A stretch of 64,000 nt of DNA from Chloroflexota bacterium. GTDB taxonomy: Bacteria; Chloroflexota; Chloroflexia; Chloroflexales; Herpetosiphonaceae. Where the stretch lies: assembly GCA_020161265.1 (NCBI GenBank), contig JAIUOC010000006.1, positions 372,001 to 436,000 on the forward strand, read 5' to 3'. The notes beneath the pieces are model-generated. The model was given only the letters and a program-made list of their open reading frames with translations, searched no databases and had not been told where the DNA came from. The translations under genes and the position numbers were made by a program. Within the stretch, counting starts at the first letter, position 1. The number at the start of each line of letters is the position of its first letter. This document shows, one piece after another, positions 10,381-20,398 of this stretch.

Positions 10381-10400
10381 GTGAGCAATTACAGATAACA

Positions 10401-10490
10401 ACCGCTAGGGGAGCCATGTGGCTGAGATTTCGCAACGGCGAAAGACCCTCTGAACCTGATCTCGTTAGTCCGAGCGAAGGAAAGCGGCGT
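10401..10490 (+). promoter_or_regulatory. TPP (THI-element) riboswitch
   Basis: The aptamer shows the conserved THI-box segments in order: GGGGAGC, CTGAGA, GACCC, CTGAACCTGAT, GTTAG and GAAGGAAAG. The closing P1 stem is CCGCT (10402-10406) with AGCGG (10483-10487). A Rho-independent terminator follows within 10 nt, so the likely mechanism is transcription termination when thiamine pyrophosphate is bound. It precedes a thiamine-type binding protein gene, which fits. Confidence 0.95.
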
Positions 10491-10496
10491 GGTTTA

Positions 10497-10519
10497 ATCC
10501 CGCCGTGCGCGGGATTTTT
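10497..10519 (+). terminator. Riboswitch-controlled intrinsic terminator
   Basis: ATCCCGC (10497-10503) pairs with GCGGGAT (10509-10515) over a 5-nt loop, followed by five T residues. Its position directly after the TPP aptamer makes it the expression platform. Confidence 0.9.
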
Positions 10520-17504: not shown

Positions 17505-19256
17505 TTATTGAAGGCTTACATCGTCAACAAAGAATGATGTAATCAATGAGCTATCTGTTGTGGTTTCAAAGCGGATGCGTACCGTTTGACCAGCATAGGC
17601 GGCCAAGCTCAAGCTTTCAGCCACCCAAGCATTCTTGGTGTTGACATTCGAGCGAGTAGCCAAGGTTCCTAACAAGGTTCCACTGGTATTATAAACCCGA
17701 ACGCGTAGGTAGTCGTAAGCCGTTGTGCTACCTTCGGTCGTGGTTTGATACCAGTAGAAGCTCAACGACTTGCCTGCTGGCACGGTCAAGGTTTGGTAGA
17801 TTCCTTCGCTAGCATTGTTGTAGCCACCCATGTAAACGCTGTAGCTACCAGTGCGTGGGCGAGTGGTGTCGATCAAACCATAACCACCGCTTGAGGCTTG
17901 GGTCCAACCAGTTGTGCCACTTTCGAAGCCACCATTGACAATGCTACCGCCGCCTGGAGGTGGGGTTGCGGTTGGTGGAACCACGGTTGGGGTGGTTGGA
18001 TTTGGCGTGCTGGTTGGAGGCGTTGGCGTTGGCGTTGAGCCACCGTTGTTGACTGCATTGTAGACATTGATTCGACCACAAGTCCAGGTGCTGCCTGTGC
18101 CGCTGATGCGATCTGAGGTCGAACAAATGCGGTCGCGAATTTGGCTATTGGTCAAGCCTTGTGAGGCCAACAAGCCAGCCAAACCAGCAACGTGTGGGGT
18201 AGCCATTGAAGTACCATTGATGGTGTTGTAGCCACTGTTGATCCAGGTTGAGTAGATGCTCGAACCTGGGGCTGCCACTTCAACCCACGAACCGTAGTTC
18301 GAGAACGATGAACGAGCATCGCTTGAGGTGGTTGAGGCGATGGCAAAACAGTTCGTGTAGGCGGCTGGGTACGAGCTGGTGGTGCTTGAGGTGTTGCTAT
18401 TACCAGCAGCACAAGCTAAGAACACCCCACGACCCCAAGCGTAGTCAACAGCATTTTGTAATGCGGTCGAACCACCACCACCAAGACTCAAGTTGATGAC
18501 TTTTGCGCCATTGTCGGCAGCGTAGGTGATCCCATTGGCTACACCAGCCAATGTCCCACTTCCGTCGTTGCCCAATACCCGCACTGGCATCACCTTACAA
18601 TTTGGACATGTACCAGCACCACCAGTGCTGTTATTCGTTTCAGCGGCGCTTGTACCTGCAACGTGGGTACCGTGGCCATTGCCGTCGGTTGGCGTTGAGT
18701 CGTTGTCGATGTAGTCGTAGCCAGCCACCATCTTGGCATCAAGATCAGGGTGGGTGCCTTGAACCCCAGTATCAACAACTGCAATCACCACGCTGCTGCT
18801 GCCTTGGGTGATATCCCAACCGGTATATGCACGGATGACACCCCATGCCCATTGTGAGCTTTGGCTTGGGTCATTGGGCGTAAAATTCACATTATAAATA
18901 AAATTGGGTTCGGCATATTCGACATTGGGATTTTGCTTCAAGCCAGCTAAGACAGCTTCGCGACCTGCGAGGGTATCGTTGCTCTTGAGGCTCGCAACTT
19001 CGATCACTTCTGCATCAAGCGCTGCAATGCGATCGATTTGTACTGCGCCGAGGGCTTTGAGGGCCGAGCTACGGTTGGCTTTGCTGGTCGTGGCTTTGAA
19101 CTTGACCACAAATTGGCCTGCAACTGCTGGAGCAGCAAAATCAACGCGATCAACTGGTTTCGCAGGAGTACGGCTTTGACCAAATGATGGGTTGGGAGCA
19201 CTGAAGATGATGACAAGACTGCAGATCAAGACGAATGAAACAAACAGACGCTTCAA
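17505..19256 (-). CDS. Secreted subtilisin-like serine protease with C-terminal jelly-roll domain
   Basis: This 583-aa exoenzyme has a signal peptide (MKRLFVSFVLICSLVIIFSA), an N-terminal propeptide (VVKFKATTSKANRS to VEYAEPNFIYN) and an S8 catalytic domain with the triad Asp (VVDTGVQGTHPDL), His (GNGHGTHVAGT) and Ser (NGTSMATPHVAGL). A Pro/Thr linker near residue 420 joins a ~140-residue beta-rich domain (NGGFESGTTGW onward) of the kind that binds surfaces or aids secretion. Translation starts at TTG 19256, with GAGGAGG about 6 nt upstream. A near-consensus promoter lies at 19463-19491, leaving a ~200-nt leader. A role in predation or nutrient release fits a gliding scavenger but is inference. 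Confidence 0.95.
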   Translation of the reverse strand: MKRLFVSFVLICSLVIIFSAPNPSFGQSRTPAKPVDRVDFAAPAVAGQFVVKFKATTSKANRSSALKALGAVQIDRIAALDAEVIEVASLKSNDTLAGREAVLAGLKQNPNVEYAEPNFIYNVNFTPNDPSQSSQWAWGVIRAYTGWDITQGSSSVVIAVVDTGVQGTHPDLDAKMVAGYDYIDNDSTPTDGNGHGTHVAGTSAAETNNSTGGAGTCPNCKVMPVRVLGNDGSGTLAGVANGITYAADNGAKVINLSLGGGGSTALQNAVDYAWGRGVFLACAAGNSNTSSTTSSYPAAYTNCFAIASTTSSDARSSFSNYGSWVEVAAPGSSIYSTWINSGYNTINGTSMATPHVAGLAGLLASQGLTNSQIRDRICSTSDRISGTGSTWTCGRINVYNAVNNGGSTPTPTPPTSTPNPTTPTVVPPTATPPPGGGSIVNGGFESGTTGWTQASSGGYGLIDTTRPRTGSYSVYMGGYNNASEGIYQTLTVPAGKSLSFYWYQTTTEGSTTAYDYLRVRVYNTSGTLLGTLATRSNVNTKNAWVAESLSLAAYAGQTVRIRFETTTDSSLITSFFVDDVSLQ

Positions 19257-19462
19257 GGGTGCCTCCTCAATATGTGGATTGCAAATTTACCATGGGCAAT
19301 CCCAAAACCGACAGTGGTTGGATTACCGCACGTACACATCATTGTTTCGAAGGAATCGGTGAGGCCGTTGGGTTCTTCCGAAGTCGCATGCCCCTTTCTG
19401 TGGATGAAGTAAGTGGCCAGTCGAACAACGTCGGGATACTCAAGTGGTCGAGTACATGACAT

Positions 19463-19491
19463 ATATTAAATCATTTTAACGAATTTGTCAA
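19463..19491 (-). promoter_or_regulatory. Near-consensus sigma-70 promoter for the subtilase gene
   Basis: On the minus strand TTGACA (19486-19491) and TAATAT (19463-19468) have a 17-nt spacer. The preceding AT-rich sequence ATTAATAATTT resembles an UP element. The 18-nt block around the -35 is repeated exactly at 20118-20135. Confidence 0.8.
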
Positions 19492-19526
19492 AATTATTAA
19501 TATTTATTTGTCGTAGGCTAAAAACA

Positions 19527-19561
19527 CAACCATCACGAAATCGCTGATCTCGTGATGGTTG
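19527..19561 (-). terminator. Intrinsic terminator of the small minus-strand unit
   Basis: CAACCATCACGA (19527-19538) pairs perfectly with TCGTGATGGTTG (19550-19561) over an 11-nt loop. On the minus strand the stem is followed by TGTTTTTAG, a proper U-tract. Confidence 0.8.
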
Positions 19562-19584
19562 CTAGAGTTTATTGAACGGTCAGT

Positions 19585-19614
19585 TTAGAAAATGATAATC
19601 ATGAAATCCTCCCC
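19585..19614 (-). repeat. Copy 1 of SD plus five-codon ORF (MIIIF)
   Basis: On the minus strand GGGGAGG is followed by 5 nt and ATGATTATCATTTTCTAA (19602 down to 19585). Copy 2 at 19831-19860 is identical through the ORF and has the same spacing, while flanks differ. Read on the plus strand the same bases (GAAAATGATAATCATGA) resemble a Fur box. Confidence 0.6.
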
Positions 19615-19830
19615 AAGATAGTGCATATGGCCTCAACACAACCAAAATATAGCTGTGAATTCACAAAACCTCGTTGATCCTGGCGACGAGCGTTGCTCAT
19701 CGGTCGTGTTCCACCCTGCATTGGGAAGATCAGCGCTTAGTATCCGAGGCTTGCACACCCTCAATCTTAGAAGATTATTACCATAAACAGACCCCCAAAC
19801 GTTATGTCAGTTCGATTATGCTGAATTCAT

Positions 19831-19860
19831 TTAGAAAATGATAATCATGGTAGCCTCCCT
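19831..19860 (-). repeat. Copy 2 of SD plus five-codon ORF (MIIIF)
   Basis: On the minus strand AGGGAGG, a 5-nt spacer and ATGATTATCATTTTCTAA (19848 down to 19831) repeat copy 1, 246 bp away. Only the ribosome-binding core and the short ORF are conserved. Confidence 0.6.
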
Positions 19861-20096
19861 CGCTATTTACACGGGGATGTTCCGGTAAACCGAGCAAGAT
19901 CCGGTGGAGTTTATTGGTGTTGGGCGATGATACGTTAGCTGTAGGAATGTTGGATGTGTGGTGAGATTCCTCCTTAACGCCAGAGACCTCTCACGTTGAA
20001 ACCATTGGTGGCTGATCAGGCTGATTCCTAGGCCGAATAGCCGTGATTCACTAAAAAATGGCTTCTACAGGCTATCGTAGGTAGGTTGTTAGGCAT

Positions 20097-20125
20097 ATTG
20101 TAACTGTCCAGCAGTTTTTTGTCAA
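20097..20125 (-). promoter_or_regulatory. Near-consensus sigma-70 promoter of the small minus-strand unit
   Basis: Minus strand TTGACA (20120-20125), a 17-nt spacer and TACAAT (20097-20102). It shares TTTGTCAAAATTATTAAT (plus-strand reading) exactly with the subtilase promoter, so one is probably a duplicate of the other. Confidence 0.75.
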
Positions 20126-20398
20126 AATTATTAATGGTTCTTTGGTACTAAAGGGGGGATAGCTATCCCCCATGAAGTCGCTAAAAGGTTTAACCTCGGC
20201 CTGAAAAGCATGACCTTGGTCCTATAATGCTTCGTAGTACAGTGGTTACTCTAGCCCTAGATTATAAAAAAATACCCCCCAAGGGGGATATTGAATCTAT
20301 ACCATTAATTTTTAGCGTCACTGCTGAGTAAAATGATTAATTATGTTCAAAATGGCTTCAAATTGGGCTAGTTGCTGCAAAAATGTGTCAATAAGCGC
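20126..20398. other. Gene-free stretch with C5/G5 palindromes
   Basis: No ORF is supported. GGGGGATAGCTATCCCCC at 20154-20171 is a perfect 18-bp palindrome, and TACCCCCC-AAGGGGGATA at about 20273-20290 reuses the same GGGGGATA word. Either could end transcription of the ABC-2 permease gene, which is read towards here. Confidence 0.5.

Follow-up and report, generated by a model that had tools for sequence, protein, structure and literature searches.

Can a gene be as short as five codons, and what would such a gene do in the cell? The question is raised by a unit of ~570 nt on the minus strand of a Herpetosiphon genome, located in the window (by which we mean the whole 64 000-nt stretch of DNA that was analysed), in which a promoter of its own is followed by three micro-ORFs and an intrinsic terminator. 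Genes of five codons are too short for any annotation threshold and, as a rule, are put down to chance. The comparison of six Herpetosiphon genomes suggests that this locus probably combines a regulatory RNA with a micro-peptide locus.

Layout and distribution of the unit

The units of the six genomes form two clades, with 98% identity within the window's own clade and about 75% identity to the other. Transcription is likely to start near 20094-20090, downstream of a sigma-70-type promoter (TTGACA-17-TACAAT; 20125-20097, minus strand) that matches the consensus at 11 of 12 positions. Both hexamers and their 17-nt spacing are invariant in all six genomes, including those of H. llansteffanensis and H. 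geysericola; between the clades, identity over the whole promoter segment is 71%, the spacer drifting while the hexamers stay fixed. The RNA begins with a near-invariant block, CAACCYACCTACGATAGCCTGTAGAAGCCATTT (20056-20094, minus strand), which is partly paired with the Shine-Dalgarno sequence of micro-ORF 1 in the predicted fold. Over these first ~39 nt, inter-clade identity reaches 95.7%, compared with 65.6% over the next 198 alignment columns. At the other end, an intrinsic terminator with a 17-bp stem and a T-run (19520-19562, minus strand) starts 22 nt past the stop codon of micro-ORF 3. The terminator region is 46% identical between the clades and forms a strong hairpin with a T-run in each of them, that of the other clade being built on a different stem of 15 bp. 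The distance from the last stop codon to the terminator stem is 22-24 nt in all six genomes.

The two outer micro-ORFs are identical 18-mers, ATGATTATCATTTTCTAA, lying 246 bp apart on the minus strand. Micro-ORF 1 (19831-19848; ATG ATT ATC ATT TTC TAA, encoding MIIIF) is preceded by the Shine-Dalgarno sequence GGAGG (19854-19858) with the spacer CTACC, and micro-ORF 3 (19585-19602), again encoding MIIIF, by GGGGAGG (19608-19614) with the spacer ATTTC. They are the sole exact copies in the 6.04-Mb genome, and no such pair is expected in shuffles of the window; a chance repeat as the origin of the pair is ruled out by these shuffles together with the genome-wide and multi-genome scans. Between them, a repeat search revealed a third, diverged copy (63% identity over 30 nt), micro-ORF 2 (ATGGTAATAATCTTCTAA, 19767-19784, minus strand; ATG GTA ATA ATC TTC TAA, encoding MVIIF), which has four differences from the outer copies, three of them at third positions. 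Its ribosome-binding-like element is a purine-rich run, GGGGG (19792-19796, minus strand), replaced by GAAGGG or GAAGGA in relatives. Strong GGAGG cores with a spacing of 5-6 nt are present in all six Herpetosiphon genomes, and the distances between the ORFs are held within two bases between the clades (64 and 62 nt from ORF1 to ORF2, 182 and 183 nt from ORF2 to ORF3). No further tandem micro-ORFs were found in the window. An orphan AAGGAGG near 19970, also within the unit, is lost in the other clade.

The initial annotation of this DNA had described the near-consensus promoter, the two identical cassettes 246 bp apart and a proper intrinsic terminator, all of which are borne out here. It had recognized two copies only, overlooking micro-ORF 2, and had stated that the unit contains no ORF above a few codons. 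Taken literally, the latter is inexact, as the minus strand carries ORFs of 40 and 43 codons, but neither of these keeps its start, stop and frame across relatives.

The annotation had also proposed a search for the cassette in relatives. We scanned 400 Chloroflexota genomes for the pattern GGAGG-N3-10-MIIIF-stop, with every synonymous codon allowed, and obtained exactly two matches per genome in the six Herpetosiphon and none in the other 394. In a collection of ~85,000 species, H. aurantiacus DSM 785, H. giganteus, H. geysericola and H. llansteffanensis gave two matches each; the only others were two unrelated single matches, which are probably due to chance. A much looser hydrophobic pattern, applied to 60 genomes of the order, again retrieved only the two copies in each Herpetosiphon genome, plus a single stray match from another genus. 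A plasmid search for a plasmid-borne origin gave no match, and among the matches listed from an exact 16-mer scan of viral contigs, all look like chance. The Rfam covariance models returned no family at gathering score between 19200 and 20400; elsewhere in the window, a TPP riboswitch was recognized at 10397-10499 (plus strand, 77 bits).

Selection on the encoded peptides

All inter-clade substitutions in the three micro-ORFs are synonymous and fall at third positions. For ORF1, the sequence ATG ATT ATC ATT TTC TAA corresponds to ATG ATC ATT ATC TTC TAG in the other clade, with four third-position synonymous changes, counting the exchange of the stop codons TAA and TAG. ORF3 has one change, ATT to ATC, again synonymous, and ORF2 has GTA to GTG, with an additional TTC to TTT in one species. 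The sole indel within the ORFs is a whole codon (3 nt) inserted after the ATG of ORF2 in relatives, which yields MGVIIF or MSVIIF. For substitution evidence that in effect amounts to two lineages and one extra change inside the second, a Monte Carlo simulation with an equal number of randomly placed changes kept all three peptides with a probability of 1-3e-5. Among 776 six-codon segments taken from both strands of the unit, ORF1 alone holds its translation through at least four changes. Moreover, three sites distinguish ORF1 from ORF3 in the second clade and both still encode MIIIF, so that conservation does not concern the nucleotide identity observed in the window. Five short ORFs keep their start, stop and frame in all six genomes. 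Three of these are led by a Shine-Dalgarno sequence and are the micro-ORFs; the other two (V/MNHxYSA and MVST/MVCL) have none, and their residues vary.

From this pattern of substitutions, we regard it as highly probable that the micro-ORFs are translated and selected for their peptide. Selection most likely acts on the pentapeptide and not only on initiation, and the micro-ORFs seem to rank with the shortest genes on which selection acts through the encoded product. The initial annotation had favoured selection on translation initiation; the species comparison gives good support to its separate transcription unit with translated micro-ORFs, but its wording was too weak, as the peptide is kept through synonymous change. 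The pure ribosome-decoy transcript that it also envisaged is disfavoured, since the outer ORFs of the second clade differ from each other and from those of the window only synonymously. The case named there as refuting, a five-codon ORF broken in a relative while the rest of the region is conserved, was looked for and not seen, and the reverse holds.

A broader explanation centred on initiation would have the strong ribosome-binding sites serve as a ribosome decoy or as protection against nucleases, the ORFs being incidental. The GGAGG cores and their regular spacing in all genomes are what it expects, and a precedent exists in the EHEC LEE4 leader, where, as relayed in PMC8708949, a six-codon mini-ORF protects the mRNA through ribosome binding and the peptide is dispensable. 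Selection on the peptide, its stop codon and its frame included, is not predicted by such a model, which we consider very unlikely. A sponge RNA for CsrA/RsmA, a kind of RNA marked by repeated GGA motifs, was also considered. This candidate was rejected because the host genome is without CsrA: a search with PF02599 gave no match there, the control genomes being positive.

RNA fold and the neighbouring subtilase

The RNA of the unit folds better than its shuffles, with z = -3.1 and -3.0 in the two clades. In the consensus fold, 98.5% of the cells are paired, a percentage that is inflated by the derivation of the fold from the same small alignment, and 11 pairs are changed on both sides. The covariation score was unmatched in 500 shuffles and collapses when the partners are slid. 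These comparisons support a structured RNA. The consensus fold pairs the invariant 5' end with the ribosome-binding site of ORF1, through pairs that never vary, and the ORF2 region with the ribosome-binding site and the ORF of the third cassette. In single-sequence folds, the Shine-Dalgarno partners differ from one to another, and we put forward the exact partners in the modelled fold as a hypothesis.

Such a fold could suggest that the locus is a non-coding RNA and nothing else. The repeats would then be conserved for the RNA stems or DNA palindromes (ATGATNATCAT) that they form, and base-pairing would produce the coding pattern as a side effect. Indeed, ORF2 is part of a long stem predicted to form with the ORF3 cassette, and there are compensatory changes, one of them at synonymous sites (columns 325/508). 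However, ORF1 is altered at four sites and its palindrome is broken while MIIIF is kept, the ORF1-ORF2 pairing obtained in single-sequence folds is not kept in all species, and pairing alone would not place all changes at third positions. We judge this explanation distinctly improbable. The palindrome AATGATAATCAT, which we take to resemble a Fur box, was likewise discarded as a regulatory site. Its copies lie ~250 and ~500 nt past the promoter, and it is lost in the third copy and in ORF1 of the other clade, where the peptide is kept.

Conversely, the unit could be read as an mRNA that encodes a formylated hydrophobic pentapeptide in several copies, the peptide acting in trans as an intracellular effector or as an exported signal, with three copies providing dosage. 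The peptide is kept while its codons change, three copies encode nearly the same product, and the transcript has its own promoter and terminator and no other gene, all in agreement with this proposal. Yet a 570-nt RNA with a near-invariant 5' block and covarying stems exceeds the needs of a five-codon message, ORF2 accepts an inserted Gly or Ser codon, and no gene for processing, export or reception is constantly found alongside, the subtilase being the only constant neighbour. Production of a free peptide as the main role of the unit is the principal rival of the reading that we favour, and is rather unlikely in our estimation.

This neighbour encodes a secreted S8 subtilase with a fervidolysin-type prodomain and a MAM-like domain (17505-19256, minus strand), and the unit sits upstream of it in all six Herpetosiphon genomes; in H. 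geysericola, the ABC permease gene on the other side was not found next to the unit. The initial annotation had placed the unit just upstream of a protease gene, and this association is constant. Nevertheless, the subtilase gene, located 250 nt downstream of the unit, has its own conserved promoter (19491-19463, minus strand) and a conserved leader of ~210 nt, and the unit is therefore not simply its leader. In sister genera, the subtilase orthologues (66-72% identical) have long leaders, and no micro-ORF unit was found within ~1.5 kb upstream of them. These leaders carry orphan strong Shine-Dalgarno sequences (e.g. AAAAGGAGGA) with no start codon at a normal distance, to which the orphan AAGGAGG of the unit is similar.

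Attenuation of the subtilase by the unit was considered and is not supported, because no antiterminator shared by the two clades was found and because the last stop codon lies 22-24 nt before the stem, too far, given the footprint of a ribosome, for one halted there to melt it. A complement noted between 19539-19550 and 19727-19738 in the window's clade is absent from the other clade. Pairing of the unit RNA with the subtilase leader was no better than that of shuffled sequences in a crude test. An upstream element, TTAATAATTTTGACA, is common to the promoters of the micro-ORF unit (20118-20144) and of the subtilase (19484-19510), with 89% identity over 27 nt. This shared sequence hints at co-regulation of the two.

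A sensor of amino-acid starvation has to be weighed against the same data. The Ile-Ile-Ile-Phe and Val-Ile-Ile-Phe codons would sense charged branched-chain and Phe tRNAs, stalling would alter the RNA, and read-through might possibly reach a protease that would supply amino acids. The leader attenuators of ilv and phe operons similarly contain runs of regulatory branched-chain or Phe codons in a short leader ORF. The synonymous exchange of Ile codons under strict conservation of Ile, Val and Phe is what a codon sensor predicts, and the protease is constantly downstream. In contrast, the ilv and phe leaders are single and longer, stand in cis to a biosynthetic operon and possess a terminator/antiterminator pair, which was not found in the Herpetosiphon unit; the antiterminator candidate of one clade is lost in the other, both clades have a strong terminator, a conserved promoter serves the protease gene itself, and no Rfam amino-acid leader reached threshold. 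We find a starvation leader improbable.

The surroundings of the subtilase yielded further observations. Its leader (19257-19485, minus strand) contains a frame-kept ORF starting with MRLR (MRLRKNPTASPIPSKQ / MRLRKLPTTSPIPSQQ), which recalls the R-x-R macrolide-arrest motif of ErmDL and MefAL. This is a weak lead: the ribosome-binding site is too close, later codons alter the protein, and the stop is lost in H. geysericola. A paralogous subtilase (G000:C7:23549-24882, and its relatives) shares ~76% DNA identity with that of the window; part of the leader is common to both, and so is a stretch that resembles a promoter, TTGACAAATTCGTTAARATNATTTAA. Only three stretches of this type occur in the genome, the third at G000:C5:195045.

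Known micro-ORFs and a possible mode of action

The closest known system is MsrDL (MYLIFM) of the mefA/msrD operon, at whose UAA stop macrolide-bound ribosomes arrest; all its residues except Y2 matter, and synonymous recoding mostly preserves regulation (PMC10314930). The two share a very short, hydrophobic ORF led by a Shine-Dalgarno sequence, a UAA stop and an intrinsic terminator thereafter. MIIIF has M1, a branched residue at position 3, I4 and F5 in common with MsrDL, a four-residue resemblance that serves as a working analogy only. However, MIIIF is without residue 6, which occupies the P site in the MsrDL complex. MsrDL has one copy, located in cis to msrD, and the ribosome stalled on it unwinds the terminator, whereas the Herpetosiphon unit has three copies, a terminator 22-24 nt away and no downstream gene on the transcript. 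Thus, of the features that define the MsrDL type, the unit has the short hydrophobic ORF with its own Shine-Dalgarno sequence, while in none of the six genomes does the terminator come within reach of a ribosome stalled at the stop, and there is no regulated gene in cis.

Erythromycin-resistance pentapeptides (E-peptides) offer a second comparison, Leu or Ile at position 3 being critical according to earlier work cited in PMC10314930. Pentapeptide length and Ile/Leu at this position are the points of likeness. Unlike the Herpetosiphon unit, E-peptides come from selected libraries or from an rRNA fragment, and we know of no natural multi-copy genes for them. Dual-function RNAs of the RNAIII, SR1 and SgrS type are also free-standing structured RNAs of similar size with a small ORF, but their ORFs have tens of codons and occur in one copy.

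Minigenes such as lambda bar, mg2 of axe-txe and the EHEC LEE4 mini-ORF are Shine-Dalgarno-led ORFs of a few codons; in contrast to the Herpetosiphon ORFs, they span two to six codons, are embedded in the leaders of other genes, and the identity of their peptide is mostly unselected. By analogy, the unit could be imagined as a minigene or type I-like toxin, whose sequestered ribosome-binding sites guard a growth-inhibiting micro-peptide or peptidyl-tRNA drop-off. A structured RNA with hydrophobic micro-ORFs would suit this role, and a strong Shine-Dalgarno sequence and UAA stops favour minigene toxicity, but such toxicity drops with length and is greatest at two codons (PMC8708949). Five residues are moreover too short to span a membrane, and one unit per genome with genus-wide vertical inheritance also speaks against a toxin, which we hold to be extremely improbable.

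We found no description, in Rfam or the searchable literature, of a stand-alone structured RNA with three near-identical, selected five-codon ORFs, and the literature search returned no study of the Herpetosiphon micro-ORF locus. Elements such as short leader ORFs, minigenes and dual-function RNAs are familiar; there is a real chance that the triple-ORF RNA of Herpetosiphon is a class of its own. Stated in full, this would be a new gene class consisting of a stand-alone structured RNA, the sole coding content of which is three copies of a selected five-residue peptide. It would function as a serial sensor based on ribosome arrest or, alternatively, as a multi-copy peptide gene shorter than any other known. 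We advance it as a possibility, and a somewhat doubtful one.

Which mode of action would reconcile these observations? Selection at the level of the peptide counts against both a pure ribosome decoy and a purely non-coding RNA, and the structure of the RNA, together with its partial invariance, suggests that the transcript does not serve as a message alone. Both would be accounted for by a regulatory RNA whose gating depends on the ribosomes that make the peptide. We therefore tentatively favour, at a little under even chances, a free-standing structured RNA gene in which the peptide slows or arrests its own ribosome in cis, the whole forming a translation-gated regulator; this reading draws on the conservation pattern and on the analogy with arrest peptides. 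We give the same cautious preference to one part of this reading, namely an action of the peptide that is exerted on the ribosome and mainly in cis. Ribosomes making MIIIF or M(x)VIIF would be slowed or arrested by the peptide, either on reaching the stop codon or on the Ile/Phe codons; this may happen only when a small molecule occupies the exit tunnel or when Ile or Phe tRNAs are uncharged. Ribosome occupancy could then remodel the RNA, by way of the predicted pairing between the first Shine-Dalgarno sequence and the 5' end and of that between the ORF2 region and the ribosome-binding site of ORF3. The three ORFs may act as serial sensors that set the activity or lifetime of the RNA. Against arrest in cis stands the fact that no gene follows in the same transcript.

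The combination of triplication, synonymous divergence and a layout fixed in six genomes provides a rare readout, from sequence only, of selection on a pentapeptide. If the peptide acts on its own ribosome, the unit would represent a sensor of the arrest type that is not part of a resistance operon, in a predatory bacterium that shares its habitat with antibiotic producers. If the peptide is itself the product, its gene would rank with the shortest peptide genes known. On either reading, the Herpetosiphon unit offers a tractable test of the minimum size of a gene.
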